Source of the DNA: Methanobacteriota archaeon
Lineage (GTDB): Archaea; Halobacteriota; Bog-38; Methanoflorentales; Methanoflorentaceae
NCBI GenBank assembly: GCA_003158275.1
Contig: PMIN01000091.1
Span: 4,877 to 48,617, forward strand
Reading direction: 5' to 3'
Length of the DNA: 43,741 bases
Under the pieces are notes generated by a model. It had not been told where the DNA came from. It did not search any database and worked only from the letters and a program-made list of their open reading frames with translations. This document shows, in pieces, positions 1,887 through 42,390 of the stretch. Positions within the stretch are counted from its first letter, which is position 1, and every line of letters starts with the position of its first letter. The position numbers and the translations under genes were made by a program.

Positions 1887-2707
1887 GCGTTTGCGGCGAG
1901 CGTGATGCCTTCTTGCATTCACTCTATCACGTTTCGGGGCGAGCGTACGAGTACTCAGCGCTTGAGCATAACGCAAACTATTCGGCAAGCAGTTCAATCA
2001 ACGTGAGAAAATTTGCAGTGGCCTTGCGCTCCTGCGTCTTTGCACAACAAAATAAGAAGAAAACATGGCTGGAAACGGAGGCTTCAAATCTGCTTGTCTA
2101 AGCTAAAAAAAATGAACTCGCTTTTGCTAATGCACGGCCTACTTCACCGACATGTCTTCATCATGAGCAGCGCGCCCAGCAGCAAATGGTTAAAGATGAA
2201 GCACGACGTTGGGCATTCCAAGGCGATTAAGAAGATGCTACGATAAGTCGCGACGACACTCCTTGCATTAATTTCGAAACGCGAATTGCCGAGAATTCGT
2301 TGCTGGTATCGATATTCTCCCTCGTCCACAAAAAGATTGCTAAGCCACATTAATCTTTTTTTCGGCATTGCCGCATGCTGACACCTAAAAAAAACTGAAT
2401 CGAGTGTTGTAAGCGTAGCAACAATACTGAGTATGGGATTTGTCGAATAGGCCTACGGAAGTTCCATTGTTTTGTTCATTGTGTGCCAAGCTGCCCGCTC
2501 TTTTGAAGCGTAACCGTCTAAGCTTGTTGTGGCGCCGGTCCGATGTTGTCGTGGCAAATCAAGCTGGCCTAGACCGCTAGTGGCTATCGATGAGTTCGTC
2601 CGTAATCCACGCGTGCATCTTTGGTCACTTTCATTGCTCACAATCCTGAGTTGAGCAAATTCACCCATTACACGCTCACGCATGTTTTCTACTATTCATT
2701 CTAGGTC
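1887..2707. other. Intergenic gap without a convincing gene; holds one copy of a diverged repeat
   Basis: No frame gives a recognisable protein. The part at about 2022-2195 resembles 3700-3890 and may be gene debris. In one frame it reads as a short stretch containing KKNELAF before hitting stops. The gap lies between the convergent ends of the isomerase and methyltransferase genes. Confidence 0.5.
2022..2195 (+). repeat. Diverged direct repeat, copy 1
   Basis: Aligned by eye with about 3700-3890. Shared blocks in order are an acaacaa..aataagaa block, a gaggctt..aatctg block, the exact run aaatgaactcgc, and gagcagcgcg followed by agcagcaaa. Similarity is imperfect with small indels (about 65-75% by eye). 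The reading frame is broken by different stops and shifts in each copy, so both look like remnants of one ancestral gene or element. Family not recognised; boundaries are approximate. Confidence 0.55.
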
Positions 2708-3379
2708 TTACTCGCCAGCCTTTTCTACTTCGCACCATATTTCGGGGTGGAAGGTTTTCGATGAGAAGATCTTAGAAAGAACAAAGTCCAAAGCTTTCGG
2801 TATTCGACTATTCCACAAAGACGTGCCCATTGTCGCATTGATCTCGGACACGTTTTTGTAACTTCGTATCTCCCCTGCACTTAAACTTACGATATTACTG
2901 ACCTCTTCGTTTGAAAAACCGCAATGTTGGTGCGTCTTGTCAAGCTGATGGTATTCAACAATTCCGTGTTCCCAAAGTTCCTGGTTTCTCTTTGGTACAT
3001 TAAAAAGGACATTCTCTTGGCAACTCTCGACAGATTTGCTCAATAAAACACACGGATCTTCTACGTGTTCTAACACGTTATACAAAACCACAGTGTCTGT
3101 TTTTGGAAAGGTAAGCGTGGATGCATCGCCTACAATGAGCTCGGCGCCATTCGGGTAAGGATAACCGCCGTACCGTCGCGCATCAATGCCCACGTATCTG
3201 CCTGTCCATCCGTGTTGACTCAAAAAGCTGTATAGTCGGCACGTACCGCAGCCCACGTCAAGGATATCCCCTTTTTGGTACTCTAAAGTCAGTAAGTCAG
3301 TTGGGTGCACAGATCCATCTGCTTTCCACCCAAAATCAAATTCTCTTTTGACTATTTCTGAACGTGCGTTTCTGACCAT
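2708..3379 (-). CDS. Class I SAM-dependent methyltransferase
   Basis: 223 residues, a normal size for a stand-alone class I methyltransferase. Motif I is ILDVGCGTCRLYSFL near residues 39-53. The acidic end of strand 2 is YVGIDARRYGG, and the post-motif region has VGDAST, then VVLYNVLEHVEDP, the usual motif IV/post-IV signature of the UbiE/Methyltransf_11 type. The acceptor cannot be read from sequence; in this cluster a sugar or lipid-linked glycan is likely. The ATG start has no strong ribosome-binding site; a TATA-like cgttaaatagag lies some 60 bases upstream. It stands alone between two gaps and ends with TAA. Confidence 0.8.
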   Translation of the reverse strand: MVRNARSEIVKREFDFGWKADGSVHPTDLLTLEYQKGDILDVGCGTCRLYSFLSQHGWTGRYVGIDARRYGGYPYPNGAELIVGDASTLTFPKTDTVVLYNVLEHVEDPCVLLSKSVESCQENVLFNVPKRNQELWEHGIVEYHQLDKTHQHCGFSNEEVSNIVSLSAGEIRSYKNVSEINATMGTSLWNSRIPKALDFVLSKIFSSKTFHPEIWCEVEKAGE

Positions 3380-4169
3380 TTCTTGGTGCCAGTTTTCGAC
3401 TGTGCTATGCTGTTAGTGGAAAAGTTCACAACTCTATTTAACGTTGGTGTGGGAAGTTTGTTATTCGATGATTGAGATTGCCTCTCCGTACTTTGCTGCA
3501 GAATCTCCCGGCTGCTTCTTAGAGTGTATAAAAGAACCCAAACGTGCGATGAACGGCGGCGCATCTGTTACAGCGCGTAGCAGGACGAACGAATTATGCC
3601 GCATCCGTCATTCTTTGTAGCGACGCACATTGCTCAACGGAAACTAGGCCCTCCCGACACCGTTAGGCCACAGGTGGATATTTCCACGCCTCACATCGGA
3701 GCGAATGCGCGCTCGGCCGCGTTTTTTTGACAACAACGAATAAGAATAGAAAAAAAATGTGGCACAAGTGGAGGCTTTGAATCTGTATGTCGAGATAAGA
3801 AAAATGAACTCGCGTATGCGATGCTGCCTATGTCGTCGAAATTCATGCGGGTACGTATTCACGCGTGAGCAGCGCGTTTAGCAGCAAACGGCGCATTGCT
3901 AAGCGATTCGGAGATCGGTATCCCGGACGCATCTCTTCGCCAGTTGTTTCTTTCGGCGATGCTTTTGTCCGCGTAACGTCTAGGAGTGTTACGCGACACT
4001 TATCCAGTTTGAAGAATTCAGCACACGGCGTTACACGGATGCAAATCTTTCGGGCGTTGCGTAAACATTGATAAACTCCATAAGGCTAATAGCGACACGA
4101 CATTTTTGGCGCACGCATTTTAAGAATAAATAAAGCAACACTCGTTTTTTTGACCTTCAACTAAACGCG
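3380..4169. other. Intergenic gap with gene debris and an orphan TATA-like box
   Basis: No intact gene seen. A plus-strand TATA-like tgtataaaag lies at 3525-3534, inside a 50-codon ORF (3468-3620, beginning MIEIASPYFAAESPG) that looks faintly like a GT4 N-terminus but goes nowhere. Copy 2 of the diverged repeat is at about 3700-3890. After it a plus-strand stretch reads through ARLAANGALLSDSEIG before a TAA. T-rich and A-rich tracts near 4130-4155 may serve as a terminator for the flippase gene. Confidence 0.45.
3700..3890 (+). repeat. Diverged direct repeat, copy 2
   Basis: Partner of the copy at about 2022-2195, in the same orientation, with the methyltransferase gene between them. The best conserved part surrounds the exact run aaatgaactcgc near 3803, followed by gagcagcgcg and agcagcaaac near 3866-3888. 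Stops and a one-base shift break the frame differently from copy 1. No terminal inverted repeats or target duplications were found by eye, so I do not call it an insertion sequence. Confidence 0.55.
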
Positions 4170-5621
4170 TTAGTCGTAGCCTCTATAAATGTTATATATG
4201 AGCTTAATTTCACGTATGGTGAAACCCCTGAGCACAAGCAGAATACTCAAATAGATTGCTGCGGCAACTGCGATCGATAACACTATGCTGAAAAGCCCAG
4301 ACGGATTCCATACGCGCAGAAACAGGGCGATAATACTCGAGCTGCAGACACTCTTGACGACGAATCCAGCGCTTACGTCGAACTTGAAATATCTAGATGA
4401 ATAGATTGCAGTCAACGTGAAAGCGAGCAGGAACGCGAGGAATGTTGTCAGTGCAGCACCTACAAGGCCCAGGTAAGGGATAAGTACTAAGTTCAAACCG
4501 AAATTCAGTGCGGCGGCGAGCATCCATATCGTGCCAATGGTGGCGGTCTTCTTTTCTAATGCGATAATGGTAACAATCACTGAGTATGCCCCAACGAGTG
4601 CAGTTCCTGCGGCAACAAACGGCGTAACTTGATAGCCGTTTGCTGCAATCTGCGGCGTGGAGAGCACAAGTAAAATCGGCTTTGATAAGACCGACAAGGC
4701 AAATACGCAGGGGAGAACCATTCCGATAAAATACTTCAGTGAGTATGTCAGGATCGTGCGTATCTCCGCTATGTTGTTTTCATCGTAGTATTTTGATAGA
4801 ACCGCAGGAAGCAGCACCGCTAAAGGTGCCGAGATCATGCCGATAGTAGTCCCCGCAGTGTACCCCGGCGAATAATAGCCTACGGCCGCGGTACCTAAAA
4901 AAAGTGCAATAAGATAACGATCGCTTGAATTTACGAGCCAACTCGATAGGCTGCCAGGGACTAACGGGAGGCCATAATTCAGATATTGCCTTATGTTCGT
5001 TAGCCTGGGGACAGCAAAACCAATCTACGCGACGATGAGATACATCATGACGAAGAACACTGTAAGCTGCTGGATTAAGAGTGCGATCACGGCGCCCTCT
5101 AATCCGTCACCTGAAAGGACGAAATAGGCTACAAGGGCCGTATTCAAGTACGCGTTAAAAAGATTTAACCAGGTGTACCTTTTGATCTGTTGGAATGTCA
5201 CAAAATATTGTAAGACAAACCAATTCAGGCAGGCGATTAAGATGTTCGGTACAAGCAGCAGGGCTGTGGTGAGATTGTTTTGAAATAAGCTCCCCGCTAT
5301 TTGCGGCGCAAACAAAAGAAACAGCCCGGAAACAACCAAGCTCGCGATCAAAACGATGAATCCCGTGGAGTAGAACAGCTCTTGGATGTCGCGTTTGTCC
5401 TTGGCTGCGGCGCCAAACCGAATCAGGGAACTTTGGAGTCCTAAAGTCGCGAGCGTGGGCACCAAGCTGAGAGTAATTATAATCAAAGCAAATGTTCCGT
5501 AATCAGCTATAACAAGGTTCCTTGTTAGAATAGGAAGCAGAATGACATTGCTGAGAAAGACGAGCGGAGTTATTACTGCGCTCAATCCTATTCGCCTAAC
5601 AGTGAGTGTGTATTTTCCCAT
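4170..5621 (-). pseudogene. Wzx/MATE-type flippase interrupted by one in-frame TAG
   Basis: Full-length flippase frame of 483 codons with a single amber codon at codon 199 (5027-5025 on the minus strand). Both halves are in the same frame, and the bridge 5024-4839 has no further stop. It reads YGLPLVPGSLSSW, SSDRYLI and GYYSPGY, matching the paralogue at 3-1079 residue for residue. Start chosen at the ATG at 5621 (MGKYTLTVRR), preceded by AGGA; a TTG at 5681 would add 20 residues. In the paralogue the amber position falls next to an Asp (VRDIG versus VA-stop-IG). Either a fresh nonsense mutation, a sequencing error, or readthrough. TAG is an ordinary terminator for about ten genes here, so general recoding is unlikely. 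Confidence 0.85.
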
Positions 5622-6697
5622 TACGTGCTTCCTGTACGATTCATCTATCTGGACTGTTGGAAGGCGTGCTTTGATCTGCAATTACCGTGTAACGCTTAGC
5701 CCAAATGGTAGGTTGACGTTCGAACTGCAGTATCATCTCAGTTTTGCGCAGCATTTCTTCGTGAAGTTGTCGTAGACTCTCGCGGCTGGCCTGAGAACGG
5801 AACTGAGATGGAGGAGACATTCACGGCTTAGTCACGAAAGACATCGGCATTTGATCTTCATTCTCACAATCAGTCAATTTAAGAAATACTCATTGGTTCG
5901 CACCAGCATAGCTATACAAAATACCGGCTGAACATGATTCTTCCGAGCTGCCCCGTCTCCATTTGGAAAAGTCCCATGCTTTAGCGAGTGAGGTAGTACG
6001 CCGGTTCTGATCATCTATTGCGCCCGCATAAATAAGCCTGCACCGAAGGTGCTCAAACAGCGATCGGCCCGTCTCATCATTCGAACGTTCTCGTTAAATG
6101 AAGCCCGCGTATTTAGCTTCAAAAAACGGCGAAATTGTTTCTAGTGGCGACTCGCAAAGCATAAGTGGTGCCGCACTCGCGAAACACCTGGTACGGCCCA
6201 GATTGTAAATTGTATTGGCAAAAGAGGTCACCAGAAGAAGATCGTTACAGTTCAGCGTACGAGGAACTCTCTACGAGGAAAAATGGCCCTGCGCTCCAAG
6301 TTCTGTTTTTTCTTGTGGATTTAACGGCCATGAGCTCTCTTGTACTCTCACAAAGCTTGTCTTCGTATCGTTCTTGTTCTAGATGCTGCTTTCAGTGGTC
6401 GACGAAAGTTGGCGAAAAAAGATCCAACTTGTCTCTAACGCTGCTAAAGATAAACAACGTATGATGCTGGTGGATCGTCCGATGCAGCTAGGCATTGATT
6501 TAAATCAGGCCTTTACTAATCAAGATCACAAGATCGAATTTAGGGTCTGCAGTGCTATAATTCGTGAAGGTTTTGCCGCACTAATCGTTTATGAAAGCAT
6601 CTCCAGGAAGAAGCGGAATTGCTTTGGCGACTCTCCGAGTTTTCGAGAGACTGAACGATTTTACCCTCATATTGCTTGATTGGAACAACAGTCTATT
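5622..6697. other. 1.1-kb gap without a convincing gene
   Basis: The longest gap in the window. Plus-strand ORFs at 6165-6464 and 6383-6679 (99 and 98 codons) have no recognisable motifs and overlap one another, so I do not call them. A TATA-like ctatacaaaata lies near 5912-5923 on the plus strand with no good gene behind it. It may be decayed coding sequence. Confidence 0.4.
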
Positions 6698-7714
6698 CTA
6701 TTCGAAAATACGGCGACAAAATTCTTCTACGCACCCGTAACGCCAGTCCTTTCTGAAGTTCGACGCCAGGCACTTCACGTAGGCATTCAGCGTTTTTTTC
6801 GCACATATTTCGTTTTCCGCTGTCAATTTCACGGATAACACACAGAGTGAGTAAACAAACGCGATTGCAAATTGCCATCGTGATAAGCTTTCAGTGAGAA
6901 AATAGAGCCACGAAAAGGTCAGTGAGGATCTATTCTTCGCACAACAGTGCTCACCGCGACTGGTATTGGTTACGTAACCTAAATGTTCTGGACGAAGCCT
7001 ATTGATAACCGCCCCGGGCTTTGATTCATCTCTTGGCCGAAGTGGGGACTCTTGCATAACTTTTTTGCGCCGAAGGTCTGGGTGTCGGACTTCGGCCGCA
7101 TCGACAGGTATAATGGCTAATTTTGCTCGCAACGCGCGGCGCGCGTAATCATAATCTTCAAAACCGACAAAGAAGTGGCAAGCATCATAATATCCGATCG
7201 AGTCCATAACTTTCTTTGAAATAAGAACCCCGTGCGTACCAAAAGCGTCGATTTCGTACTTGTTTGCACCCGAACGAACCGGACACAGATGTCCAAAGAA
7301 GTTCTTTTTCAACTTTGTAACGGCGACCCAGGGCTTGTCTATATCGACCTTTTTGGGACAAAGAATGTCACCGTCGTGAGCGCGATTCAGCAATTGCGCG
7401 AGACAGCGATCTGATGCAACTCCGTCCTGATCTAAGGGCCATATCCAGTCGAAATCGTTCTCGTGGGCAATCTTCATTGCGTGGCAAAAGCCGCCGGCAG
7501 AGCCCACGTTGTTTTTGGTCTTTTGATACTGGGCAAATGGATATTTTTTAGAGTAGGTGTCGAATATTTTTCTGTTTTCCTCCAAGTATCTTCGATCTGA
7601 GTTATCGATAACAATGAGTCCACTTAAAGCGTGCCCTTGATTTGCGAGTGACGAGAGAAGACGCGCGAGTTCTTTTGGATCGTTGTAGGCGACTGTTGCT
7701 GCGCAAACCCGCAC
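6698..7714 (-). CDS. GT2 glycosyltransferase, galactofuranosyl/rhamnosyltransferase-like
   Basis: 338 residues; GT-A fold enzyme using a nucleotide sugar on the cytoplasmic face. The N-terminus RVCAATVAYND and LIVIDNSD (about 34-40) are the family's first strands. NNVGSAGGF (68-76) is typical of GlfT-like GT2 enzymes, and DQDG at 95-98 takes the place of the DXD metal motif. GFEDYDYARR near 170 is the usual acceptor-side acidic motif. The C-terminus is more hydrophobic. The GTG start at 7714 is preceded by GAGGG at an eight-base spacing, which supports it. It lies 163 bases downstream of the GlpA-like gene on the same strand and may be co-transcribed. The sugar is unknown. Confidence 0.85.
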   Translation of the reverse strand: MRVCAATVAYNDPKELARLLSSLANQGHALSGLIVIDNSDRRYLEENRKIFDTYSKKYPFAQYQKTKNNVGSAGGFCHAMKIAHENDFDWIWPLDQDGVASDRCLAQLLNRAHDGDILCPKKVDIDKPWVAVTKLKKNFFGHLCPVRSGANKYEIDAFGTHGVLISKKVMDSIGYYDACHFFVGFEDYDYARRALRAKLAIIPVDAAEVRHPDLRRKKVMQESPLRPRDESKPGAVINRLRPEHLGYVTNTSRGEHCCAKNRSSLTFSWLYFLTESLSRWQFAIAFVYSLCVLSVKLTAENEICAKKTLNAYVKCLASNFRKDWRYGCVEEFCRRIFE

Positions 7715-7877
7715 TTTCTTTTCCCTCGTCGTTTTATGATCGACTGCAATTCATGTGTGTTTCGCGCCGATGACCTTTGTTGAGGCAGTCCCGTGAAGGT
7801 TACGGTCTTCAATGTTGAGGCTCTCGCAAACTGTTGTCATACAAAAAGCCGTTTGATTTTGCGAAGTAGGTCAAGGT

Positions 7878-8999
7878 TTAATCGGCATTGAGGGGCTCTT
7901 TCGACGTTCTGCACCGCGCGTTGCATTGCGCTTTTTGACAAACAGCATCAGCTATCTTTTCCGCCATTAATCTCGCCGTTGTTAGCTTTCCCCCAATAAT
8001 GTGGAACACGTTGCTCGGATCTTCGAGCACCTTAAAATCGCGAGACTTCAAGCGTCCGTCGGCTGCTTGCCTCCCCCCCTCGACCGTTCCGTCATCGGCT
8101 TCTGCGAGTGCCCGTACACCTGTAAATGTGCGCAGCGTAGGCCGGCGCTTTACATTTGGAAGAATGCGAGCGAGTTCATTTGTTAGATACGTGTTAGCCC
8201 ACGGTTCAGGATATGCATCTTCTGGTCGCTGGATTGTTGTGGAGGTCGTGCCCAACCAGCCGTATCCATTGTGCACGATGTACGCATCTGCATCTGACGG
8301 CTCTCGCAAATGCTGGATACCTCGTGAACAGAGCGCATTTTGGACTATAATCGTTCCTTGGCTGTAGGTTAGTGGAATGCTAGCGTTAACTTTACTAGCC
8401 ACAGTATTTACCCACGGACCGGTCGCGTTAATTAGGTAGTCAGTCGTCAATGTGCCCAGGCTAGTAGATATCACGAATTCCTCTTCAATTTCTCGTATCG
8501 ATCGAAGCTCCTGGTTTTCGAAAAGACTGCCGCCATTTTGCTTTGCAGAATAACAGTTCAGCCAACAAAATCGCTGCGCATTTATGTTTTTGTCGGCCGT
8601 TTCCACCGCAACGTTTAGATCTCTATTCAATTCAGGAATCTCCTGAAATACTTCATCAATATCAACTTCTCTCGCTCGAATGTGTAGCTTTTTGGCTGCC
8701 TGCAGCGCAGAGAGTGCATATTCACTGGTTACACCGACGAAGTAATTCAGAATATCTCCGACTACTTCTGAAGCGATATTAGAAACAATTTCGTTCTCTT
8801 TGGCGCATTCTTGCGCAACTATAGGATCTTTCAAAACGTACCGCATCCCACCCAGTAAGTTTTGATGAGAAGACGAAGTTGTGCCACCCGCGATAGTTCG
8901 TTTTTCGATGAGAGCTACAGAGAAGCCCCTCATCGATAAATCCCGGAAAGTCGAGGTGCCTGTAGCGCCACCACCGAATATAACGACATCATATCTCAT
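7878..8999 (-). CDS. FAD-dependent glycerol-3-phosphate dehydrogenase-like protein (GlpA-type)
   Basis: 373 residues. The N-terminal FAD-binding motif is FGGGATGTSTFRDLSMRG, followed by LIEKRTIAGGTTSSSHQNLLGG and RYVLKDP, which tracks the GlpA signature (GTT...H..LLH.G.RY). A second dinucleotide-fold element is INATGPWVN, and the C-terminal HIIGGKLTTARLMAE is the family's conserved end of the DAO domain. It lacks the C-terminal domain of GlpD and the iron-sulphur-binding tail of GlpA, and no glpB or glpC is nearby, so its electron acceptor is unclear. Its ATG overlaps the stop of the upstream cytidylyltransferase-like gene by ATGA, implying translational coupling. It may oxidise glycerol-3-phosphate or a related polyol phosphate to tune a CDP-activated building block; that role is inference. 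Confidence 0.8.
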   Translation of the reverse strand: MRYDVVIFGGGATGTSTFRDLSMRGFSVALIEKRTIAGGTTSSSHQNLLGGMRYVLKDPIVAQECAKENEIVSNIASEVVGDILNYFVGVTSEYALSALQAAKKLHIRAREVDIDEVFQEIPELNRDLNVAVETADKNINAQRFCWLNCYSAKQNGGSLFENQELRSIREIEEEFVISTSLGTLTTDYLINATGPWVNTVASKVNASIPLTYSQGTIIVQNALCSRGIQHLREPSDADAYIVHNGYGWLGTTSTTIQRPEDAYPEPWANTYLTNELARILPNVKRRPTLRTFTGVRALAEADDGTVEGGRQAADGRLKSRDFKVLEDPSNVFHIIGGKLTTARLMAEKIADAVCQKAQCNARCRTSKEPLNAD

Positions 9000-9754
9000 G
9001 CGTTCCTCGCTCGAGCATTGATTTTTTTTCGGAGGGTTCGTGCTCGAAGCAGATCATCGTACGTGTCTATTTCGCAGCGAAGCAGCCCGTTCGTGAAGAC
9101 TACGTGCATCGCTGATGGATGTTTGAGCAGAAGCCTATTTAACGGTTCGGAGTACCACTCCGGTTTCACTCGCGGCTCTTTTAGCATGTGCGTGAACTCG
9201 CTTAAGAGTGGACCGCTCAGCCTAATCATGCTCGTATATGCTGCATTGCCCTGAACGGATTTTCCAATGCTCGCAGCGAAGCCATTTTTCACCAGCACTT
9301 TGCAGTCTTCTGGTTCTATTTTTTTTTCGTTGTCTACGATGCAGACATTGTCGTGCGGTGATTGGACAAGCTTCCGCAATAGACCAAATTCGAACAATAT
9401 GTCTCCGTCTAAAATGAGTATGGAGTCAGTCTCGGGATCGATGTGTTCGAAGGCTAGCGACAAACTATACGCGTTATCGGTCTCGTGAAAAACTTTATTG
9501 TGGACAATAGTAATAGGTATACCATATTCCGACCTTGCGATATGCTCTACGATCAAATCACGTTTGTAGCCTACGACTATTAGCTCGCGCTCGATGTTCA
9601 GTTTTGCCAAATGGCGGATCTGGTAATCGAGGATAGTCTCGTCACCGAGGGATAGCAAGCACTTTGGTATATCTTCTGTCAGCGGCCTTAGCCTCGTAGA
9701 CCTGCCAGCTGCGAGAATTATCGCTTTTGCCTTGTCCTTGCTTCTTTCTCTCAT
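8996..9754 (-). CDS. Nucleotidyltransferase, LicC/PntC-like (probable CTP:phospho-X cytidylyltransferase)
   Basis: 252 residues, a single NTP-transferase Rossmann-type domain. The signature AIILAAGRSTRLRPLT (about 11-26) and the lysine in DIPKCLL bind the nucleotide triphosphate. ILDGDILFE near 107-115 supplies the metal-binding Asp. The later EPEDCKV and SIGKSV segments match the layout of the phosphocholine/phosphonate cytidylyltransferases more closely than glucose-1-phosphate thymidylyltransferases. No acyltransferase domain, so not GlmU. Context (coupled GlpA-like flavoprotein, divergent CDP-glycerol-type transferase) favours CTP as donor and a glycerol-like phosphate as acceptor, but substrate is inference. 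TagD, the usual glycerol-3-phosphate cytidylyltransferase, belongs to a different fold. Confidence 0.8.
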   Translation of the reverse strand: MRERSKDKAKAIILAAGRSTRLRPLTEDIPKCLLSLGDETILDYQIRHLAKLNIERELIVVGYKRDLIVEHIARSEYGIPITIVHNKVFHETDNAYSLSLAFEHIDPETDSILILDGDILFEFGLLRKLVQSPHDNVCIVDNEKKIEPEDCKVLVKNGFAASIGKSVQGNAAYTSMIRLSGPLLSEFTHMLKEPRVKPEWYSEPLNRLLLKHPSAMHVVFTNGLLRCEIDTYDDLLRARTLRKKINARARNA

Positions 9755-10115
9755 AGATTATCACGCGACCTGGCGACTGTCAACAGCTCGAATTCTTTGG
9801 CGAATACATTAGCAAAATGCGGATGCAGGCGGGAACAGATGGTTTCTGGATCACGTTCGTTAATCCAACCCTCGGACGATAAGAGTCACAAGAAAAACCT
9901 ACTAATAAAACTATTGATGTAGTCTTTGGTTTAGAGACGAGGGCATTACCTTCATCCAAAAGTCCGTTCCCCCGCCACTGAGGGACACCTTTCTCGGCGC
10001 CGGGGTCTAAAGGAGAAATATGATAGAGGGGGGGCTATACATGTAGTTATAGTTCCCTGACAACGTTTCTTAATAATAAGTACCACCCTGAAAAATCACA
10101 AATGGAAGGTCCCAC
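9755..10115. other. Divergent promoter region of the CDP/glycerol-phosphate module
   Basis: Lies between the minus-strand cytidylyltransferase-like gene and the plus-strand CDP-glycerol-type transferase. A plus-strand TATA-like ttaataataa at about 10070-10079 lies some 40 bases before the ATG at 10116, and GGAAGG sits just before that start. No clear box was seen for the minus-strand gene. No gene inside. Confidence 0.45.
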
Positions 10116-11378
10116 ATGGAAATGCTGAGCCGCCCTACGCAAAACTTGATGGCGTTCGTTAGAGCGAATCACACAGCTTGGCTTATTTTGAGTTTTTTTG
10201 GGGATCTCTTGTGGTTAGCGACGACGATTCTACCTAAGGATAAGACTTTGTGGATTTTCGGCGCGTGGTGGGGCGATGCATATGCGGATAACAGCAAGTA
10301 CCTGTTTGATTACGTGAACAGCAATCAAGACGTGATTAGAGCCGTATGGTTGACAAAAAACAAGGCGGCTTATGATTTGGTGAAAAGCCACGGCTATGAA
10401 GTTTATTTGTTGAACAGCGTCCGCGGGTTCTTGTTACGTGTGAGGTCGGGTGTTTGGGTGATGTCGTCGGGGATATTTGACTTTAACTCTTATCATATGT
10501 GGCCTGTAGGGCGGGTGAAAATCGTTCAGCTTTGGCACGGCACTCCGCTAAAGACGCTAGGATATGACGAGCACCACCACGTCAGTCTAAGCCGTGGCGC
10601 AAACCTTGCGCGATTGCACGTGCTCCCATTTAACAAACGAGTGAGGCATGACGATCTATACATCGCTCCTTCAGAAGAGGTGCGATCCAAAATAGCGATG
10701 GTTTTTGGAGTTTTGCCAGAAAAAGTAAAAATAACGGGCTACCCCCGGACCGACGCATTGTTTGCTCGCGATAAACCAAAAGTTCCAATGACGGTTTTGC
10801 TGCACAAGTTAAAGGCCACATCTACGTTGGCGATATACATGCCGACTCAGCGCCACGAAGGAGAAGAAGGCCTTGGTTTTCTCCTGAGCGACTTGAAGTC
10901 TGTCAACTCAAGATTAGCTGAATTGAACATCATCTTGTTAGTTAAGTTGCATTTTTGCCATTTGGGTGAGCTTCATTCGTTAGATCGGTCTCTTAGCAAT
11001 GTGCTTTTTGTGAAAGATGAGGACATCGATCAAGACATCTACACTATTCTGTCCGAAACAGATTTGTTGATCACGGATTACTCAAGCATCTATTTTGATT
11101 ACTTGCTTCTCAACAAGCCGATCATATTTGCTCCATTTGACCTTGAAACGTTTATCGCGAACGACAGGCCGCTGTTCTATAACTACGCTGACGTAACTCC
11201 TGGGCCCAAAGCCCGAAACTGGACCGAAGTCATCGAATGCATGGAAGATATCGCGCGCAAAGGCGACGCGTACGAAAAGCTGAGGCTCAAAGTAGACAGC
11301 ATATTTAATGCCTACCACGACGGGAACAGCAGCCAGCGAGTCTTCCAAGCAATCACGGCAGAATTGCTTCGCGTATAG
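10116..11378 (+). CDS. CDP-glycerol glycerophosphotransferase family protein (TagB/TagF-like)
   Basis: 420 residues, a peripheral membrane enzyme family that transfers a polyol phosphate from a CDP-polyol to a lipid-linked glycan or growing chain. Family motifs in order: QLWHGTPLKTLG (about 138-149, with the catalytic-type His), TGYPRTD near 208, IYMPTQRHEGE near 240, a conserved His in KLHFCH near 272, and LLITDYSSIYFDYLL near 312-326 that binds the CDP moiety. An N-terminal hydrophobic stretch (WLILSFFGDLLWLATTIL) may anchor it to the membrane. It is transcribed away from the cytidylyltransferase/GlpA-like pair. The member cannot be assigned as primase (TagB) or polymerase (TagF) from sequence. 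The amino-acid coding is relatively AT-rich. Ends with TAG. Confidence 0.9.
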   Translation: MEMLSRPTQNLMAFVRANHTAWLILSFFGDLLWLATTILPKDKTLWIFGAWWGDAYADNSKYLFDYVNSNQDVIRAVWLTKNKAAYDLVKSHGYEVYLLNSVRGFLLRVRSGVWVMSSGIFDFNSYHMWPVGRVKIVQLWHGTPLKTLGYDEHHHVSLSRGANLARLHVLPFNKRVRHDDLYIAPSEEVRSKIAMVFGVLPEKVKITGYPRTDALFARDKPKVPMTVLLHKLKATSTLAIYMPTQRHEGEEGLGFLLSDLKSVNSRLAELNIILLVKLHFCHLGELHSLDRSLSNVLFVKDEDIDQDIYTILSETDLLITDYSSIYFDYLLLNKPIIFAPFDLETFIANDRPLFYNYADVTPGPKARNWTEVIECMEDIARKGDAYEKLRLKVDSIFNAYHDGNSSQRVFQAITAELLRV

Positions 11379-34025: not shown

Positions 34026-34379
34026 GCGAAAACCCTGTTAAAGCTCTAGGGAGTCACCTTATATAGAAGTGGTGTTGCCGAGGGCGTCCTGGTCGTTTGT
34101 TCAGAAGGGGTGGTCATTCCTGAGGGTCAACGCGGGAAACGCGGTTGCGTCTTGTCGCTCAACCAATCACAGGACAACGCAAACTTGATTTTTTCCGCTT
34201 TACGCAGGCCGTACGGCCGCCGATCCATATCACGGCCCATCTGCGGGGACGCTTCAGTATAACATCGTGTGGGCTCGCGGCCGCACGAGATAGTCTCAAG
34301 CGTGCAGCAGCGTTGCTTGTGCCATCTTCGCGGCACAAGAAAACATTTATGAGCGAGCGCGCGGAATTAGACCTAAGGT
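34026..34379. other. Divergent promoter region
   Basis: A strong minus-strand TATA box at 34058-34068 serves the DUF2334 gene. A plus-strand acatttatga near 34343-34352, 28-37 bases before the GTG at 34380, may serve the small DUF1616-like gene. No gene inside. Confidence 0.5.
34058..34068 (-). promoter_or_regulatory. TATA box of the DUF2334 gene
   Basis: Minus strand reads ttctatataag. It is close to the archaeal consensus. Transcription would begin near 34037, about 12 bases before the ATG at 34025. Confidence 0.6.
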
Positions 34380-34799
34380 GTGAATCGTAAACTTCTTACG
34401 TGGGTGCTCGCGGCCGTTTTAATCCTCGCGGTTTGCGGAACGATACTGATCATCGTACTTCCGCAGCCAGGCGAACCGTTTACTGAGCTGTACCTGTTAG
34501 GTGCGAGCGGAAAAGCCTCAGATTATCCGACGAATCTCACAGTCGGCCAGAAAGCCAATGTGACCGTCGGTGTCGTCAATCACGAGAACGCGGACGTCGA
34601 CTACACGCTGGTGGCAACGCTGGCCAACAAAACTATTTCGAACCAATCTTTCGGCCTCGCTAACACACAGCAATGGCAAGGCTCGATCTCATTTACGGCC
34701 ACCACCCGAGGCTCGGGGCAAAAATTGGCGTTTGATTTGTACAAGCAGGGCGACGCGAACGTGTATAGGTCAGTATACCTTTTTGTCACCGTCACGTGA
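34380..34799 (+). CDS. Free-standing DUF1616 C-terminal domain protein
   Basis: 139 residues. One N-terminal membrane segment (LLTWVLAAVLILAVCGTILII), then an extracytoplasmic domain with LYLLGASGKASDYP and VGVVNHENADVDYTLVA, which aligns directly with the C-terminal domain of the DUF1616 protein at 28340-29272 (FYILGPDGKAQDYP, VGVTNHEQRAMDYTLV). The multi-span N-terminal part is missing. The GTG start fits an almost leaderless mRNA from the TATA-like box upstream. Likely role: an outward-facing accessory domain; function unknown. Confidence 0.75.
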   Translation: MNRKLLTWVLAAVLILAVCGTILIIVLPQPGEPFTELYLLGASGKASDYPTNLTVGQKANVTVGVVNHENADVDYTLVATLANKTISNQSFGLANTQQWQGSISFTATTRGSGQKLAFDLYKQGDANVYRSVYLFVTVT

Positions 34800-35047
34800 C
34801 CAAACGGACGCTTGTGCGTTCTGGCGCACGTGTGCGTGAGCAACAAGATCGGCTGCGCGCCCTCTCGCGCGCCCCCGGTGTGTTTGGCCAACGATCCGAT
34901 GCGCCAGACGAAATAGTTCTGTCGCGAAGCAAGCCCCTTTGAATGGGAACGGGCTTCATTGCCAGCCGATGGGCATTTGAGCGTGACGGCATATTCTTAT
35001 AGGGGTACTACGATCAACGAACTACTGATTGAAAGAATGGTGGGATC

Positions 35048-36010
35048 ATGCCGACAGCACTGATAACCGGCATTACAGGACAAGACGGCTCATATCTTGC
35101 TGAACTGCTTCTTGAAAAGGGCTATGAAGTCTACGGTCTAGTGAGGCGACTAAGCACCCCCAATGAGACGCGAATAGAGGCGATCATAGATGAGCTCGTG
35201 CTGCTCGAGGGCGATCTCACCGACCAGTCGTCGCTCAACATCGCGCTGCAGACCGCCATGCCTGATGAGGTCTACAACCTTGCCGCACAATCGTTTGTCG
35301 CCACGTCCTGGAACCAGCCGGAGCTGACCGGCGACGTCACCGGACTTGGCGTCGTTCGCGTCCTGGAAGCGGTGCGGCACTTCTGCCCCACAGCACGGTT
35401 CTACCAGGCCTCGAGCAGCGAAATGTTTGGCACGTCGCCGCAGCCGTCGAAAAGTGAGATCACGCCATTCCACCCGCGAAGTCCGTATGCCGTAGCAAAA
35501 GTGTTTGGGCATTATGCGACGATCAATTATCGAGAGAGTTACGGGCTGTATTGCTGTAACGGTATCTGCTTCAACCACGAGTCTCCGCGGCGCGGCATAG
35601 AGTTCGTGACGAAGAAAATCTCAGACGGAGTCGCGCGCATCTCTTGCAACCAGGCGAACGAGCTTCGCTTAGGCAACCTAGAAGTGCGCCGCGACTGGGG
35701 TTTTGCCGGCGATTACGTGAAGGCGATGTGGCTCATGCTGCAGCAGGATGAGCCTGATGACTACGTGATCGCCACCGGCGAGAACCATTCGGTGAGGGAC
35801 TTCGCCGCGCTCGCATTCGATCACGTCGGTTTGGACTGGGAGAAGTACGTCACAATCGACGAGCGATTTATGCGGCCCGCAGAAGTACCTGATTTGAAGG
35901 GAGACGCGTCAAAAGCCCGTGCCAGGTTGGGCTGGGCACCCGAGACCTCGTTTGAGGCACTCGTGCATATGATGGTGGAGGCCGATGTGGCACGATACAG
36001 CCAAGCCTAA
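35048..36010 (+). CDS. gmd: GDP-mannose 4,6-dehydratase
   Basis: 320 residues. Converts GDP-mannose to GDP-4-keto-6-deoxymannose in the cytoplasm. GITGQDGSYLAELLLEKGY is the NADP-binding motif, ASSSEMFG carries the catalytic Ser/Glu, and SPYAVAKVFGHY the Tyr-Lys pair. CFNHESPRRG, RLGNLEVRRDWGFAGDYV and NHSVRDF are the Gmd-specific motifs. It is somewhat shorter than bacterial Gmd (about 345-370) but complete. GGTGGG lies just before the ATG, and a TATA-like tattcttata lies about 50 bases upstream. First gene of the gmd-GT4-GT4-DUF2206 operon. The next enzyme (Fcl or Rmd) is not in the window. Confidence 0.93.
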   Translation: MPTALITGITGQDGSYLAELLLEKGYEVYGLVRRLSTPNETRIEAIIDELVLLEGDLTDQSSLNIALQTAMPDEVYNLAAQSFVATSWNQPELTGDVTGLGVVRVLEAVRHFCPTARFYQASSSEMFGTSPQPSKSEITPFHPRSPYAVAKVFGHYATINYRESYGLYCCNGICFNHESPRRGIEFVTKKISDGVARISCNQANELRLGNLEVRRDWGFAGDYVKAMWLMLQQDEPDDYVIATGENHSVRDFAALAFDHVGLDWEKYVTIDERFMRPAEVPDLKGDASKARARLGWAPETSFEALVHMMVEADVARYSQA

Positions 36011-36073
36011 GGGATTAACCCTTACTCGTCTCTTTACCGCGCACACTGTCTCCGTTGAACACGTCCAAGCCCA

Positions 36074-37249
36074 ATGCGGCTTACCGAAGTATCTAAAATG
36101 AAGGTGACGTTGGTTCGAGGGCGGGGGATAGAGCCGGGCATAAACAAGATAGCGAGGGCGCTCGCAACGCACGGCTATTCGGTCAAGCTGCTGATTTGGG
36201 ACCGCGATGGTGTTGCCGGATCGTATAATACGGCGTTGTACCCCACGTACAAGTGTCGGATCAGGGCCCCATACGATCGACCGGCGGCGCTGCTGTACCT
36301 GCCGCTCTGGTGGGCATATGAGCTCGTGTTTCTTCTGCGAGACGATAGCGATGTCATACATGCAAGCGACTTAGATACGCTGCTCCCGGCCATACTCGCC
36401 AAACTCATCGGGAAGCGACAGCTCTGCTATTTTATCTATGACTTCTACGCAGATAATTTGCCTGACGGGGGATTTCAGGGGCTGAGGAAGCGCATTAGAC
36501 GGTTTGTCGGGCACCTTGAACGCACGGGAATCGGCTTCGCTGACGTGCTGTTTTTGGTGGATGAATCGCGCTTTGAAGAGGTCGACGGAGCACACATTAA
36601 GGAACTCTATTACGTCTACAACTCCCCGATTGATTGCGTAACAAGGCTCCATGCGAGTGCAGGAACCGCATCGAGGGCGCCTGCCGGCGAGATGGTTATA
36701 TTTTACGCAGGGGCGATGCACAGGTCCCGTGGGCTCAACTATATGTTCGACGCGGTGAGCGGTGTCGAAGGCGTGCGGCTTAAAGTGGCGGGGCCGATCA
36801 CTGACAACGAAGGGGTTCTGGACGAACTGAACCGCGTCGGGAGCAAGGCGCAGTATCTCGGGTTCTTGTCCTCGTACGACGACGTCATCAGGGAGACGCT
36901 GAAGGCGGATCTCTTGTTCCGGTTTGAAGATCCGAGGGTCCCCAAGACGAAGTATGCGAGCCCCGCCAAACTGTTTGAAGCAATGATGTGCGGAAAGCCG
37001 ATCATCGTAAGCGACGGTACTACAATGGCGAACATCGTTCGAAAGGAGCGGTGCGGGGTGGTGGTGCCGTACGGCGACGTGCCTGCACTCACCGACGCGC
37101 TAACAACGTGTAGGGAGGACCCGTCGCTCCGCGCCGAGCTCGGCAACAACGGGCGTCAGGCGTACGAAGAGCGTTACAGTTGGACGATCATGGAAGAACG
37201 CGTGCTTAACGGCTATCGCTCTCTTGGCCCGCTCGCGCGCACCGTTTGA
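36074..37249 (+). CDS. GT4 glycosyltransferase
   Basis: 391 residues, or 383 from the second ATG at 36098 (MKVTLVRG), which fits the usual GT4 start better. VIHASDLDTLLPAILAK and CYFIYDFYADNL lie in the N-terminal domain, MVIFYAGAMHRSRGLNYM opens the C-terminal domain, and SPAKLFEAMMCGKPIIVSDG near 307-326 is the donor-binding motif. It follows gmd after 63 bases and overlaps the next gene by four bases, so it probably uses the Gmd-derived sugar; this is inference. Confidence 0.88.
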   Translation: MRLTEVSKMKVTLVRGRGIEPGINKIARALATHGYSVKLLIWDRDGVAGSYNTALYPTYKCRIRAPYDRPAALLYLPLWWAYELVFLLRDDSDVIHASDLDTLLPAILAKLIGKRQLCYFIYDFYADNLPDGGFQGLRKRIRRFVGHLERTGIGFADVLFLVDESRFEEVDGAHIKELYYVYNSPIDCVTRLHASAGTASRAPAGEMVIFYAGAMHRSRGLNYMFDAVSGVEGVRLKVAGPITDNEGVLDELNRVGSKAQYLGFLSSYDDVIRETLKADLLFRFEDPRVPKTKYASPAKLFEAMMCGKPIIVSDGTTMANIVRKERCGVVVPYGDVPALTDALTTCREDPSLRAELGNNGRQAYEERYSWTIMEERVLNGYRSLGPLARTV

Positions 37250-38451
37250 GGATTGCCGTGAATGTCTTAGACATCACTATTCACGTAGGTCTCTCGCAGC
37301 CGAAGAATGGAGCACAGGAGAGGTACGCCAATCTCACAAAACAGCTCACTGCCAGAGGTAACAATGTTATCGTGCTCGAAGCCGCGGAGTTCGTCGATCC
37401 TGAAGACGCGACGCTTGCCACGATTTACTCGTACAGCGATCTCAAGTTCGTCGGTCGGACGCTGCGCGTTTTTCGCGACCTCGCACCGAGTTTTGTGCGC
37501 AGCGTCATACGAATACTGCGTGAGAACACCGTCGACCTCATTCAGATCTCGCATCCGAGCGGCGCTTTCGCCGTGAAGTTCGCCACCACGCTGACGGGCA
37601 GTAATGCACCGCTTGTCTATGCCCCTCACAACGTCGAATCGGAGCTCGTTACCGAGACTTTTTCCAGCGACCTCCAGTATACCTGGATCGAACGGGTCGT
37701 CCTTCCGCGGTATATCTTCTTGCTTGAGCTTCTCATCTGCCGGTTTGTCGCACAGCACGTTATCGCGGTAAGCGAGCGCGATAGGGGCATTATCATTAGG
37801 CGATTTCGACTTGCCCCTACAAAGATAACGGTCGTACCGTCCGGCTGTAGCTTGGATCAGTTGCCCAACGACGAAGAGAAAGCTCTCGCACGACGTGAGC
37901 AGGGCATAAGCGAGCACGCGCGCGTCATCCTGTTTCACGGCTATTATCCGTACCCGCCTAATCGCGAAGCGTTTGACGTCATTGAGCGGTACATCGCACC
38001 CAGACTAGGAACGGTCAACACAAACGTCTTGTTTTTGGTGGGCGGCACCGGCGCGCCAACATTTGAGCGAGAGAATGTGCGTTCAGTCGGCTTCATTGAG
38101 GACTTGCCGCGTTTTCTCGCCGCAGGAGAGATCGCGATCGTCCCGATAGGCACCGGAAGCGGAACGCGGCTAAAGATCTTGCAATACATGAATAGGGGGC
38201 TCCCCATCGTAACGACTGAAAAGGGTATCGAGGGCGTAACAGCACGCAACGGGGAACACGCGCTCATCGTGCCGACGATCGATGAACGATTCATCGACAA
38301 CGTGGCGTGCCTTCTTGAAAACGAAAGCGAACGAGCACGGTTAGGTGCTAACGCACGAAAGCTGCTTGAAGCGAAGTACACATGGAACGCCATCGGCGCG
38401 CAATTGCTCGGCGCATACAAGCGCGTACTGGAGGGCCGCCATGGTCCTTAA
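37246..38451 (+). CDS. GT4 glycosyltransferase
   Basis: 401 residues. RIAVNVLDITIHVG, LVYAPHNVESELVT (about 122-135) and HVIAVSERDR belong to the N-terminal domain. ITVVPSGCSLDQL ends it. VILFHGYYPYPPNREAF and IVPIGTGSGTRLKILQYMNRGLPIVTT (in pieces, near 300-325) form the donor site. The TTG start overlaps the previous stop as TTGA; a GTG four codons later would cut into the first beta strand, so TTG is preferred. The 3' end overlaps the next gene by 11 bases. Confidence 0.87.
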   Translation: MRIAVNVLDITIHVGLSQPKNGAQERYANLTKQLTARGNNVIVLEAAEFVDPEDATLATIYSYSDLKFVGRTLRVFRDLAPSFVRSVIRILRENTVDLIQISHPSGAFAVKFATTLTGSNAPLVYAPHNVESELVTETFSSDLQYTWIERVVLPRYIFLLELLICRFVAQHVIAVSERDRGIIIRRFRLAPTKITVVPSGCSLDQLPNDEEKALARREQGISEHARVILFHGYYPYPPNREAFDVIERYIAPRLGTVNTNVLFLVGGTGAPTFERENVRSVGFIEDLPRFLAAGEIAIVPIGTGSGTRLKILQYMNRGLPIVTTEKGIEGVTARNGEHALIVPTIDERFIDNVACLLENESERARLGANARKLLEAKYTWNAIGAQLLGAYKRVLEGRHGP

Positions 38452-40804
38452 TCCTCTCCTCATGAACGACTGGCCGCGCAAAAAGGCACTCATAGCAGTC
38501 CTCACCTTACAGTTTCTTGTCTGGGCCCTCATCGGACTCGACGCCGCAGGGGTGCAGATACCGCTTTTGCGGGGCCTGTTTGCCTTTGTGTACCTCTTGT
38601 TCGTTCCCGGTATGCTTGTCCTTCGGGCCCTCCGCCTGCACCAGCTCGGCGGCGTGCGCACGCCGCTCTTCGCCGTTGGTCTGAGCGTCGCGACTGTCAT
38701 GGGGACAGGACTCCTCATGGCCACAGTGTATCCGCTTCTCGGATTCGATAGGCCGATCACGCTTGTTCCGGTTGTGGTGACGGAAGGCGTCATCATTACC
38801 TTCCTCGCCGTACTGACTTATCGGCGCGATCCGGGTCTAACTGACGAAGGCGTCATTGATCGACGTGACGTGGTAACGCCGTCCGTATTAGCGCTGTGTG
38901 TGCTCCCATTTGTAAGCATATTTGCAACGTACGCGATGAATGCGTACGGCAGCAACGTGCTCCTGCTCGCACTCATCATCATTATCGCGATCACGGCGTT
39001 TTGGATCAGCACATCGGCATCCGTTCCAAAGAAGCTTTATCCACTCGCAGTATTCGTAATCGCGGTCGCCCTCCTCTATCACGGATCGCTGATCTCGTCT
39101 TACGTCTCGGGGTGGGACATCCAAAAGGAGCTCTATACCGCGAACGCTGTGCTTACCAACGCCCAGTGGAATGTGCACGCGCCTGGCGCAATCAACGGCG
39201 TGCTGAGCATTACGCTTCTTGCTCCACTTATCTCAATCGTGTCAGGCGTGAGCGTGGTGTGGGTTTTTAAGACGATCTATCCTCTCTTGTTCGCTCTCGT
39301 ACCGGTCGGTCTCTTCGTCGTGTTCAAAAAACAGACGAGCGACAGAATTGCCCTCTTAGCCGCCTTCTTTGTTACCTTTTTGTTCACTTTCTTCACCGAA
39401 ATGCCCGCACTCGCGCGACAGGAAATCGCCGAGCTGTTTCTGGTCCTGCTCTTAATCCTGCTAGTTGACAAAGGCATCGGACGCGCGCCCGGGAAAGCGC
39501 GCCTTTACGCGCTCTATGCAGTGTTCGCTGCGTCTGTTGTTGTGTCGCACTACGGGCTCGCGCTCATCTTCATTGTATATCTCGTCGTCGCGTGGCTGGT
39601 GCTTTTCCTCTTCGACAACCCGGCTATGCGCCACTTACATAGGGCCGCTCCTTATGGGCTGCAGGCAAAGCCTACGTCTCGCCCGAAACGGATGCTGACG
39701 CTGCCCTTCATCTTGTTGTTCGCGGCCTTCACGGCTGTGTGGTACGCGACGCTCGGGTCCGCGGCACTGAGCGCTGAAATCGCCCCTCACCTCACCGACA
39801 TTGATCGCACGCTTCTCTCCTCTCCTAATGTCTCCATCGTAATCGGAATCGGCGCTGCTGCGTATGTCTGCGCTCTTGTGATCGTCTACGTGCTCGCCGC
39901 GCGCGCCCAGCGGAAGGCTCCCACGTTGCCGCGACTGTTCGGGGCGCCGGTCGCTGTTCTCTCTGCGTCGCTCGCGCTCGCGCGTTATTACGGGCTTTCG
40001 ATTAACGAACTGCTCCAGCTCGGGACACTCTCGCCTCTCCACGAGGGGGCGGAGCTCCTTTACCTGCTCGGCCTACTTCTCATCGTTGTGGGGCTCGCGG
40101 CACTCGCGCTCCGTCGTTGTCGTTTCACGTTTGACCCAGAGTTCGCCGCGCTCGCGCTCGCGAGCCTTGCGGTGTTGACGACAGCAGCCGCCATACCTTT
40201 ATTGGCCGCCACTATCGGCACGACGAGACTCTATCAGATCTCAACGCTCCTGCTGGCCCCCTTCTGTGTTACCGGAGCGCTGCTGATCGTCGGGGTTCCT
40301 GCACGCTTGCGCGCGAAACGGCGTGAAAGGACAGGCGTGAGCCTCGCTTACAAGCTGGTCGCAGCGCTCTTTGTTGTGATGCTGTTGTTCAGCACTGGGC
40401 TCATCTACGAGGTCACGCGGCAGGATCCAACCTCATATTTCCTAAATAACTCCATTGATGGTCCTATTTTCAATGCGAGAGAGGTGGCTGGGGCTCAGTG
40501 GCTCTACTCGGTGAAAAGTAGTGACACGGGCACTGCGCCTGTGTACACCGACGTCTATCGCAGCCTTCTGCTATCTAGCATTGATTCCAATAATTCGTTC
40601 GAAATCCCCACTTACGCGCCGCACACGCCACTCGCCGCGTACGTCTTTCTGGGGACGTTCAATTTGCTCACAGGAACGACCGCGCAGGAATCTGGCGAAA
40701 CATTCCTCAACGGCACGGTGATATACCACGCAAGCTTGGCCGGTATCGCGGACACTCGCAATCGTATTTTTGACGACGGAGGCGCCGTCGTATACTACCG
40801 TTAG
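38441..40804 (+). CDS. DUF2206 large membrane protein
   Basis: 787 residues from the ATG at 38441, which has GGAGGG five bases upstream; the frame is open back to 38345, but that part is a shadow of the GT4 gene. The N-terminus (VQIPLLRGLFAFVYLLFVPGMLVLRALRLH, here in pieces) is the typical DUF2206 opening. About fifteen hydrophobic segments follow, then an extracytoplasmic tail of about 120 residues ending RNRIFDDGGAVVYY, the NxxYDNG-type end. DUF2206 proteins occur in archaeal glycan clusters and may be GT-C-type transferases or polymerases; no activity is established here. Last gene of the gmd operon. GC-rich coding by eye. Ends with TAG. Confidence 0.85.
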   Translation: MVLNPLLMNDWPRKKALIAVLTLQFLVWALIGLDAAGVQIPLLRGLFAFVYLLFVPGMLVLRALRLHQLGGVRTPLFAVGLSVATVMGTGLLMATVYPLLGFDRPITLVPVVVTEGVIITFLAVLTYRRDPGLTDEGVIDRRDVVTPSVLALCVLPFVSIFATYAMNAYGSNVLLLALIIIIAITAFWISTSASVPKKLYPLAVFVIAVALLYHGSLISSYVSGWDIQKELYTANAVLTNAQWNVHAPGAINGVLSITLLAPLISIVSGVSVVWVFKTIYPLLFALVPVGLFVVFKKQTSDRIALLAAFFVTFLFTFFTEMPALARQEIAELFLVLLLILLVDKGIGRAPGKARLYALYAVFAASVVVSHYGLALIFIVYLVVAWLVLFLFDNPAMRHLHRAAPYGLQAKPTSRPKRMLTLPFILLFAAFTAVWYATLGSAALSAEIAPHLTDIDRTLLSSPNVSIVIGIGAAAYVCALVIVYVLAARAQRKAPTLPRLFGAPVAVLSASLALARYYGLSINELLQLGTLSPLHEGAELLYLLGLLLIVVGLAALALRRCRFTFDPEFAALALASLAVLTTAAAIPLLAATIGTTRLYQISTLLLAPFCVTGALLIVGVPARLRAKRRERTGVSLAYKLVAALFVVMLLFSTGLIYEVTRQDPTSYFLNNSIDGPIFNAREVAGAQWLYSVKSSDTGTAPVYTDVYRSLLLSSIDSNNSFEIPTYAPHTPLAAYVFLGTFNLLTGTTAQESGETFLNGTVIYHASLAGIADTRNRIFDDGGAVVYYR

Positions 40805-40947
40805 CGACGGGCACGCTATCGCTCCGGACATTTAGGTGATTGAAGAATTGGTTATAGTGCGTTTGGCATAACGATTAATCACCTTGAAGTTTGCAATGGA
40901 ATATGGCCTAATTGGGCTGAATTTAGGCTTCTCAGGTCGTTTCATCA

Positions 40948-41829: not shown

Positions 41830-42390
41830 CTTTAACAAACCTATCGCTGCATTATTATTGAACTCTTCTCACACACGAGGTGACATAGACTGAGGTTGTT
41901 TAGTTTGCGGCGCGTAGAGGTAACGCGCGTGAGCAGTGTGACTGAACAACGAGACAAGCTAAACAGCCGCAGATCCACGCCCATCAGACATTGCCGCGCT
42001 TTGCTAGCGTATTCGATGAAAGCAGGGTCAGGACGAAAGAAGACATTACCCCCTCTTGTGCCGTTTCAAGGAGGCAACGGTGGCCACTCAGAGCTTGAAA
42101 CATGAGCGCATCAAAAGAGAGCGCGAGCGCACAGATGCGGCAGGCTATCAGCTTATCCAGGCAACTCCTACTTATTGGGGGCCGTGCGGCATACGTGCGA
42201 GATAGATACACGGTTAAACCAGCAATGAACAAAATATGCAGGCGCCAGTCGAGCAACCGAGCGCGTTTTTCACAGGCTTAACTTCAATGCCTTACCGATG
42301 AACGGGCTGGTCGGAAACTAGATGAGCAGACCCGCCAAGTGTTTTTCAGAAGGTACGTCTCCCGACAATCCATAGTAGGCGGGAATAATA
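41830..42390. other. Divergent gap, no convincing gene
   Basis: Apart from the TATA-like box above, there is a 90-codon minus-strand ORF (41984-42256) starting with a hydrophobic HILFIAGLTVYL, but no family and a poor continuation. Possibly debris. Confidence 0.4.
41851..41860 (-). promoter_or_regulatory. TATA-like box of the GT2 gene
   Basis: Minus strand reads caataataat, centred some 27 bases from the ATG at 41829. This predicts a leaderless mRNA. Confidence 0.4.

Follow-up and report, generated by a model that had tools for sequence, protein, structure and literature searches.

The stretch analysed here (hereafter the window) comprises 43,741 nucleotides of contig PMIN01000091.1 from a metagenome-assembled genome (MAG) of a Methanobacteriota archaeon (GCA_003158275.1; G000:C241:4877-48617 in our data set), which is 2.1 Mb in size and 70% complete. 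The GTDB genus of the host, Bog-38, corresponds to the hydrogenotrophic methanogen Methanoflorens (PMC10805028), and the window very probably comes from such a peat methanogen. As read from its open reading frames (ORFs) and their Pfam matches, the window is a glycan-biosynthesis island with many glycosyltransferases, in which genes for a GlpA-like flavoprotein, a LicC-type nucleotidyltransferase and a TagF-family (PF04464) transferase lie side by side (Table 1). The three ORFs, the overlap of the first two (which suggests their translational coupling) and the divergent TagF-family gene were found where an earlier reading of the sequence alone (the original prediction) had placed them, and the archaeal setting that it assumed agrees with a match to the archaeal-type glycerol-1-phosphate (G1P) dehydrogenase and with the origin of the closest loci from peat archaeal MAGs. 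The parts of the trio belong to known families; their combination appears to be a new variation on the CDP-glycerol/teichoic-type module. Family matches, co-occurrence of the three genes and a second copy support the view, which we hold with good confidence, that the trio encodes a module for cytidine diphosphate (CDP)-linked polyols in an archaeal glycan island. Going further, we consider it probable (roughly 0.6) that the cassette both supplies CDP-glycerol and transfers phosphoglycerol from it to a surface glycan; in this reading the flavoprotein would supply sn-glycerol 3-phosphate (G3P) in place of the dehydrogenase GpsA.

Table 1. Features of the trio and its surroundings in the window
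Feature	Positions	Strand	Remarks
GT2-family glycosyltransferase (GlfT1/rhamnosyltransferase-like)	6698..7714	-	downstream of the flavoprotein gene, as also in G021
GlpA-like flavin adenine dinucleotide (FAD)-dependent polyol-phosphate oxidoreductase (predicted)	7878..8999	-	373 amino acids; DAO domain only, without C-terminal iron-sulphur (FeS) domain; kept in 6 loci
ATGA stop/start overlap (nucleotidyltransferase stop, flavoprotein start)	8996..8999	-	4 bases
LicC-type nucleotidyltransferase (predicted CTP:glycerol-phosphate cytidylyltransferase)	8996..9754	-	252 amino acids
Divergent intergenic region between nucleotidyltransferase and TagF-family genes	9755..10115	.	361 bases
TagF/TarF-family (PF04464) CDP-glycerol glycerophosphotransferase (predicted)	10116..11378	+	420 amino acids; presumed TagF catalytic histidines kept (H141, H279)

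Conservation of the trio

The trio is a real, conserved cassette and not a chance grouping, because it recurs on a second contig and in relatives and is under purifying selection. The second copy in the same genome (contig C140) has all three genes on one strand (nucleotidyltransferase 2189-2917, flavoprotein 2921-4045, PF04464 gene 4171-5433), and the same collinear order is seen in two further genomes (G001 and G031); in G021, which belongs to the species of the window, the PF04464 gene follows the flavoprotein cassette with one glycosyltransferase gene in between. The ratio of non-synonymous to synonymous substitution rates (dN/dS) between copies was 0.10-0.23 for the three genes. Among 394 genomes of the phylum, the high-scoring flavoprotein family had six members (694-762 bits, the next matches reaching 211), and in all six copies the flavoprotein gene is directly preceded by a nucleotidyltransferase gene of one clade, a pairing kept across two archaeal families. 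The original prediction had staked its reading on the three genes occurring together in relatives, and besides the copy on C140 the flavoprotein and PF04464 genes are both present in the same four of the seven genomes of the genus and both absent from the same three. When GTDB contigs were scanned with the alignment of the flavoprotein, by a search that relies on exact matches to short patterns and passes over remote relatives, only four loci were returned (three from peat and one from Methanophagales). No viral relatives of the flavoprotein were found.

Properties of the three proteins

The TagF-family protein matches Pfam Glyphos_transf (PF04464, E-value 1e-70; 239 bits against a cut-off of 22.1) and TagF itself (3l7i, 7.7e-23). 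Its residues H141 and H279, invariant in six archaeal sequences, align with the histidines of the WHGTPLK and RMHY motifs, which we take to be the catalytic ones of TagF. Scores lay far below the NCBIfam equivalog cut-offs for TarF (134.2 of 550 bits), TarL (75.8 of 1000) and TarB (47.7 of 500). From these matches we infer that the protein transfers phosphoglycerol from CDP-glycerol, either singly or to build a polymer.

The nucleotidyltransferase (Pfam NTP_transferase, 3.6e-16) has LicC (1jyk) as its best solved relative by sequence, carries the N-terminal nucleotide-binding signature (the AAGRSTRLRPLTEDIPK motif) and aligns over residues 9-242 with LicC-type relatives of about 250 amino acids. 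As the original prediction had recognised, it is not TagD: the HxGH motif of TagD is absent and the Pfam family differs. In a fold search with a structural model (predicted local distance difference test, pLDDT, 63) RmlA was listed first, and since RmlA, IPCT and LicC match alike, the search does not decide the substrate. Cytidine triphosphate (CTP) is the likely nucleotide by analogy, because LicC, PntC and the inositol-phosphate enzymes use it. In the ANME-1-type genome G219, in which no PF04464 gene was found, a CDP-alcohol phosphotransferase gene comes next after the nucleotidyltransferase-flavoprotein pair, the gene ends overlapping. This different transferase would draw on a CDP-alcohol of the same type, and its presence speaks for such a compound as the product.

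The LicC-type family has other partners elsewhere. At six loci (L009, L011, L020, L023, L027 and L030, mainly of family f4) the nucleotidyltransferase stands beside an apparent CDP-alcohol phosphotransferase, and these pairs are possibly split inositol-phosphate enzymes. A phosphonate-type locus (L133 of G063, 3902-9417) encodes a fusion of phosphoenolpyruvate (PEP) mutase with a nucleotidyltransferase, apparent phosphonopyruvate decarboxylase halves, an iron-dependent alcohol dehydrogenase, a LicC-type enzyme and a CDP-alcohol phosphotransferase.

The flavoprotein is a member of the DAO family (Pfam, 2.2e-33), and its closest solved sequences are glycerol-3-phosphate dehydrogenases. The GlpD residues R54, Y55, R317, R332 and K354, which we take to belong to the G3P site, correspond to R53, Y54, R296, R320 and K338 of the flavoprotein and are invariant in all six copies; H233 of GlpD is replaced by T216, and canonical GlpA likewise lacks that histidine. 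The best NCBIfam model is GlpA (TIGR03377), at 267.4 of 552.8 bits and thus below the equivalog cut-off, and the protein ends before the Bfd-like, cysteine-containing FeS domain at the C-terminus of GlpA, by which GlpA presumably hands electrons on to GlpB (PMC11962113). Neither glpB nor glpC was recognised among the neighbours in the six flavoprotein loci read. An AlphaFold model (pLDDT 33) was discarded. A plain catabolic GlpA was rejected for want of a glycerol kinase, an FeS domain and GlpBC, and the Methanocella-like GlpA relatives (family f9) were rejected as functional counterparts, because they have housekeeping surroundings and no nucleotidyltransferase nearby.

GpsA cassettes in other archaea

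GpsA is nicotinamide adenine dinucleotide (NAD)-dependent and converts dihydroxyacetone phosphate (DHAP) to G3P. At six archaeal loci (L116-L119 and L042 of family f3, L132 of f21) a LicC-type nucleotidyltransferase gene lies directly before gpsA or overlaps it, and a PF04464 gene adjoins them; at a seventh (L043) the coupled nucleotidyltransferase-gpsA pair has its PF04464 gene about 10 kb away; the seven loci are from genomes G227, G105, G130, G079, G257, G125 and G095 (the last containing L043). G021 contains both types, its GpsA cassette (L035) lying about 12 kb from its flavoprotein cassette. The window genome is not of the GpsA-coupled type; the flavoprotein holds the position of GpsA, and no remnant of GpsA or of a second nucleotidyltransferase was found in the 361-base intergenic region of the window. 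These gene orders suggest a glycan role for GpsA in archaeal PF04464 clusters.

In a tree of 42 nucleotidyltransferases, the deeper branches of which are weakly supported, the flavoprotein-linked sequences formed one clade (100/100), the GpsA-linked sequences of f3 and f21 another, and the GpsA-linked sequence of G021 fell into a third, where it was joined by a phage gene that neighbours gpsA and by one from Solidesulfovibrio that overlaps a PF04464 gene. Because the nucleotidyltransferases fall into separate clades, LicC-type enzymes seem to have become paired with glycerol-phosphate dehydrogenases on more than one occasion, and this repeated origin argues that the dehydrogenase supplies the substrate of the nucleotidyltransferase.

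Within the phylum, 44 of the 394 genomes have a PF04464 gene; its neighbour is often a LicC-type nucleotidyltransferase, the partners of which vary (GpsA; a GDPD gene and a nucleotidyltransferase-HAD fusion in haloarchaea-like genomes; a nucleotidyltransferase-aminotransferase fusion). The haloarchaea-like arrangement (L121, 7950-10520; L124; L130) combines a PF04464 gene with genes for a GDPD-family phosphodiesterase and for a fusion of a LicC-type nucleotidyltransferase and a HAD phosphatase. In Cobetia phage Carin-5 (L033), gpsA, a LicC-type nucleotidyltransferase, a glycosyltransferase and a glycerophosphodiester phosphodiesterase follow one another in a row.

Proposed pathway and alternative explanations

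Eight genomes were checked for other sources of glycerol phosphate. GpsA was absent from seven of them (the window genome included) and present only in G021, and glycerol kinase was absent from all eight, a pattern that holds in the more complete G001 (90%) and G219 (92%); a G1P dehydrogenase match was present in all eight. Because GpsA holds the slot of the flavoprotein elsewhere and other G3P sources were not found in G000, G001, G031 and G219, the flavoprotein more likely makes a polyol phosphate than oxidises one, and would most likely run from DHAP to G3P. That it acts as an oxidising enzyme on the polyol phosphate or on a CDP-linked alcohol, as the original prediction suggested, is less likely for the same reasons.

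In the pathway that we propose, the flavoprotein would interconvert DHAP and G3P, probably acting as a reductase and GpsA stand-in; the coupled LicC-type enzyme, to judge from its family, would join glycerol phosphate and CTP to give CDP-glycerol; and the TagF-family enzyme would use CDP-glycerol as the donor of phosphoglycerol for a glycan that the neighbouring glycosyltransferases build. The direction of the flavoprotein reaction, its stereochemistry and its electron donor are what we infer from this arrangement. The lipids use G1P from G1P dehydrogenase, so that a distinct sn-3 pool would separate the precursors of the glycan from those of the lipids. More tentatively, the short GlpA-type flavoprotein might reduce DHAP with electrons from a carrier of methanogens (e.g., F420H2 or ferredoxin) and make G3P solely for phosphoglycerol surface glycans in a cell whose lipids have the opposite enantiomer.

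Several points weigh against the proposed pathway. Characterised GlpA and GlpD enzymes oxidise G3P, and the reverse reaction needs a low-potential electron donor, none of which was recognised nearby. The genomes checked are MAGs of 61-92% completeness, so that single absences are soft. The TagF-family gene is divergent in the window, and the closest relative of its product (75% identity) sits in the GpsA cassette of G021. Finally, an sn-1 substrate is possible because, in a passage of PMC8262930 (citing Rodrigues 2017), the CDP-glycerol-forming activity of Archaeoglobus fulgidus is given as preferring glycerol 1-phosphate.

The same A. fulgidus preference favours a scavenging scheme, in which the nucleotidyltransferase would use G1P from the lipid pathway (G1P dehydrogenase being found throughout the genomes checked) and the flavoprotein would oxidise G3P, as the wrong enantiomer or from glycan turnover, to DHAP, as known GlpA enzymes including a short archaeal one do (PMC11962113). 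We regard it as decidedly unlikely, because G3P is what GpsA makes where it holds the corresponding position, no glycerol kinase was found as a source of G3P, and neither GlpB/GlpC nor a C-terminal FeS domain was recognised that could hand electrons to quinone. Unlikely too, if the foremost competitor, is a non-glycerol polyol, with the flavoprotein reducing a tetrulose or ribulose phosphate and the nucleotidyltransferase making CDP-erythritol, CDP-ribitol or similar: LicC-type enzymes take diverse phosphates and that of the window belongs to a clade of its own, GlpA-family flavoproteins occur in polyol clusters elsewhere (e.g., in Rubrobacter), and PF04464 is shared with TarL-type ribitol polymerases, but the G3P-site residues are kept and it is GpsA, a three-carbon enzyme, that replaces the flavoprotein in equivalent cassettes. 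Plain glycerol phosphate is therefore a more likely substrate than an exotic polyol, although the original prediction had allowed for an activated unit other than plain glycerol.

The remaining explanations have still less in their favour. The DAO superfamily is catalytically broad, and the tight coupling of the flavoprotein to the nucleotidyltransferase would suit the idea, in line with the original prediction, that it oxidises a CDP-linked alcohol or the finished phosphopolyol to a keto or acid decoration; retention of the small phosphate-site residues as in GlpD/GlpA and the positional exchange with GpsA make this very unlikely. Phosphonate or phosphocholine tailoring by the PntC/LicC pathway proper, which could account for LicC being the best match in the PDB and has a counterpart in the related archaeal locus L133 with its PEP mutase, nucleotidyltransferase and CDP-alcohol phosphotransferase, was rejected as highly improbable: PEP mutase was absent from all eight genomes (G000 being only 70% complete), which disfavours a phosphonate substrate, no lic or phosphonate genes were recognised in the window, and these pathways are not known to involve a GlpA-like partner. 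Least probable of all is an ordinary sugar-1-phosphate nucleotidyltransferase in accidental adjacency. Sugar nucleotidyltransferase models do give the top NCBIfam scores and RmlA heads the structure search, but the NCBIfam matches cover mostly residues 10-143 and lie far under the cut-offs, as against the near full-length LicC-type alignment, and the pairing with the flavoprotein is kept across two archaeal families.

Comparison with known systems

In the Gram-positive TarIJL system a dedicated reductase supplies the polyol phosphate. Like the teichoic-acid modules (TagD/TagF, TarI/TarJ/TarL) and the TagF-like capsule polymerases with their TagD-type enzymes (PMC8262930), the trio combines a cytidylyltransferase with a PF04464 transferase; it differs in that the cytidylyltransferase is LicC-type and not TagD/IspD-type, the flavoprotein is not an NAD(P) reductase, and the host is an archaeon with G1P lipids. 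The archaeal GpsA clusters (L116-L119, L042, L132 and L035) likewise have coupled genes for a nucleotidyltransferase and a G3P dehydrogenase, with a TagF-family gene as neighbour, but GpsA is unrelated to the flavoprotein, and the nucleotidyltransferases are of other clades. With the short archaeal GlpA (glycerol-3-phosphate dehydrogenase of S. acidocaldarius, PMC11962113) and GlpABC the flavoprotein shares the DAO fold and the G3P site, and short forms also lack the FeS C-terminus; those systems, however, are catabolic and associated with glycerol kinase and CoxG or GlpBC, neither of which was found here, where the partner is a nucleotidyltransferase. The nucleotidyltransferase itself shares sequence family, fold and signature motif with LicC, PntC and inositol-1-phosphate cytidylyltransferase (PMC6697681; PDB 1jyk, 6pd1, 4jd0, 2xme) but has other partner genes.

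The original prediction knew of no such trio in archaea, and our literature search, the partial coverage of which makes it weak evidence of novelty, returned no description of the flavoprotein trio or the GpsA trio. TagF-family genes as such, however, had already been annotated in archaea; in Methanobrevibacter ruminantium, for instance, one is assigned to teichoic-acid biosynthesis (PMC5816558). For archaeal glycerophosphoinositol, PMC8262930 cites CDP-glycerol chemistry.

GpsA is known from few archaeal groups (Archaeoglobi, Methanobacteria, Methanomicrobia and Woesearchaeota only; PMC5059525), and why some archaea with G1P lipids keep a bacterial-type glycerol-3-phosphate dehydrogenase is an open question in work on the lipid divide. 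Gene order offers a testable answer for part of these archaea, namely provision of G3P for surface glycans, via GpsA in some lineages (the coupled cassettes being a possible reason why the archaea with L116-L119, L042, L132 and L043 keep GpsA) and, in methanogens of peat and in one genome of the ANME-1 type, probably via the flavoprotein. If true, abundant, uncultivated methane producers of thawing peat would have teichoic-acid-like chemistry.

Further observations in the window

No RNA families were found within the window. A partial flippase gene lies at its start, and a second, a polysaccharide flippase gene (4170-5621, minus strand), is interrupted by one in-frame TAG stop, which reflects either a broken gene or an assembly error; the corresponding frame in G021 (L036, 12382-13833) is intact and encodes 483 amino acids. 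The island is rearranged within one species: blocks of the window (2698-11365 and 34332-42531) are 70-86% identical to G021:C17 in a different order, and about 13 kb that contain the GpsA cassette in G021 are missing in the window between the PF04464 and nucleotidyltransferase genes.

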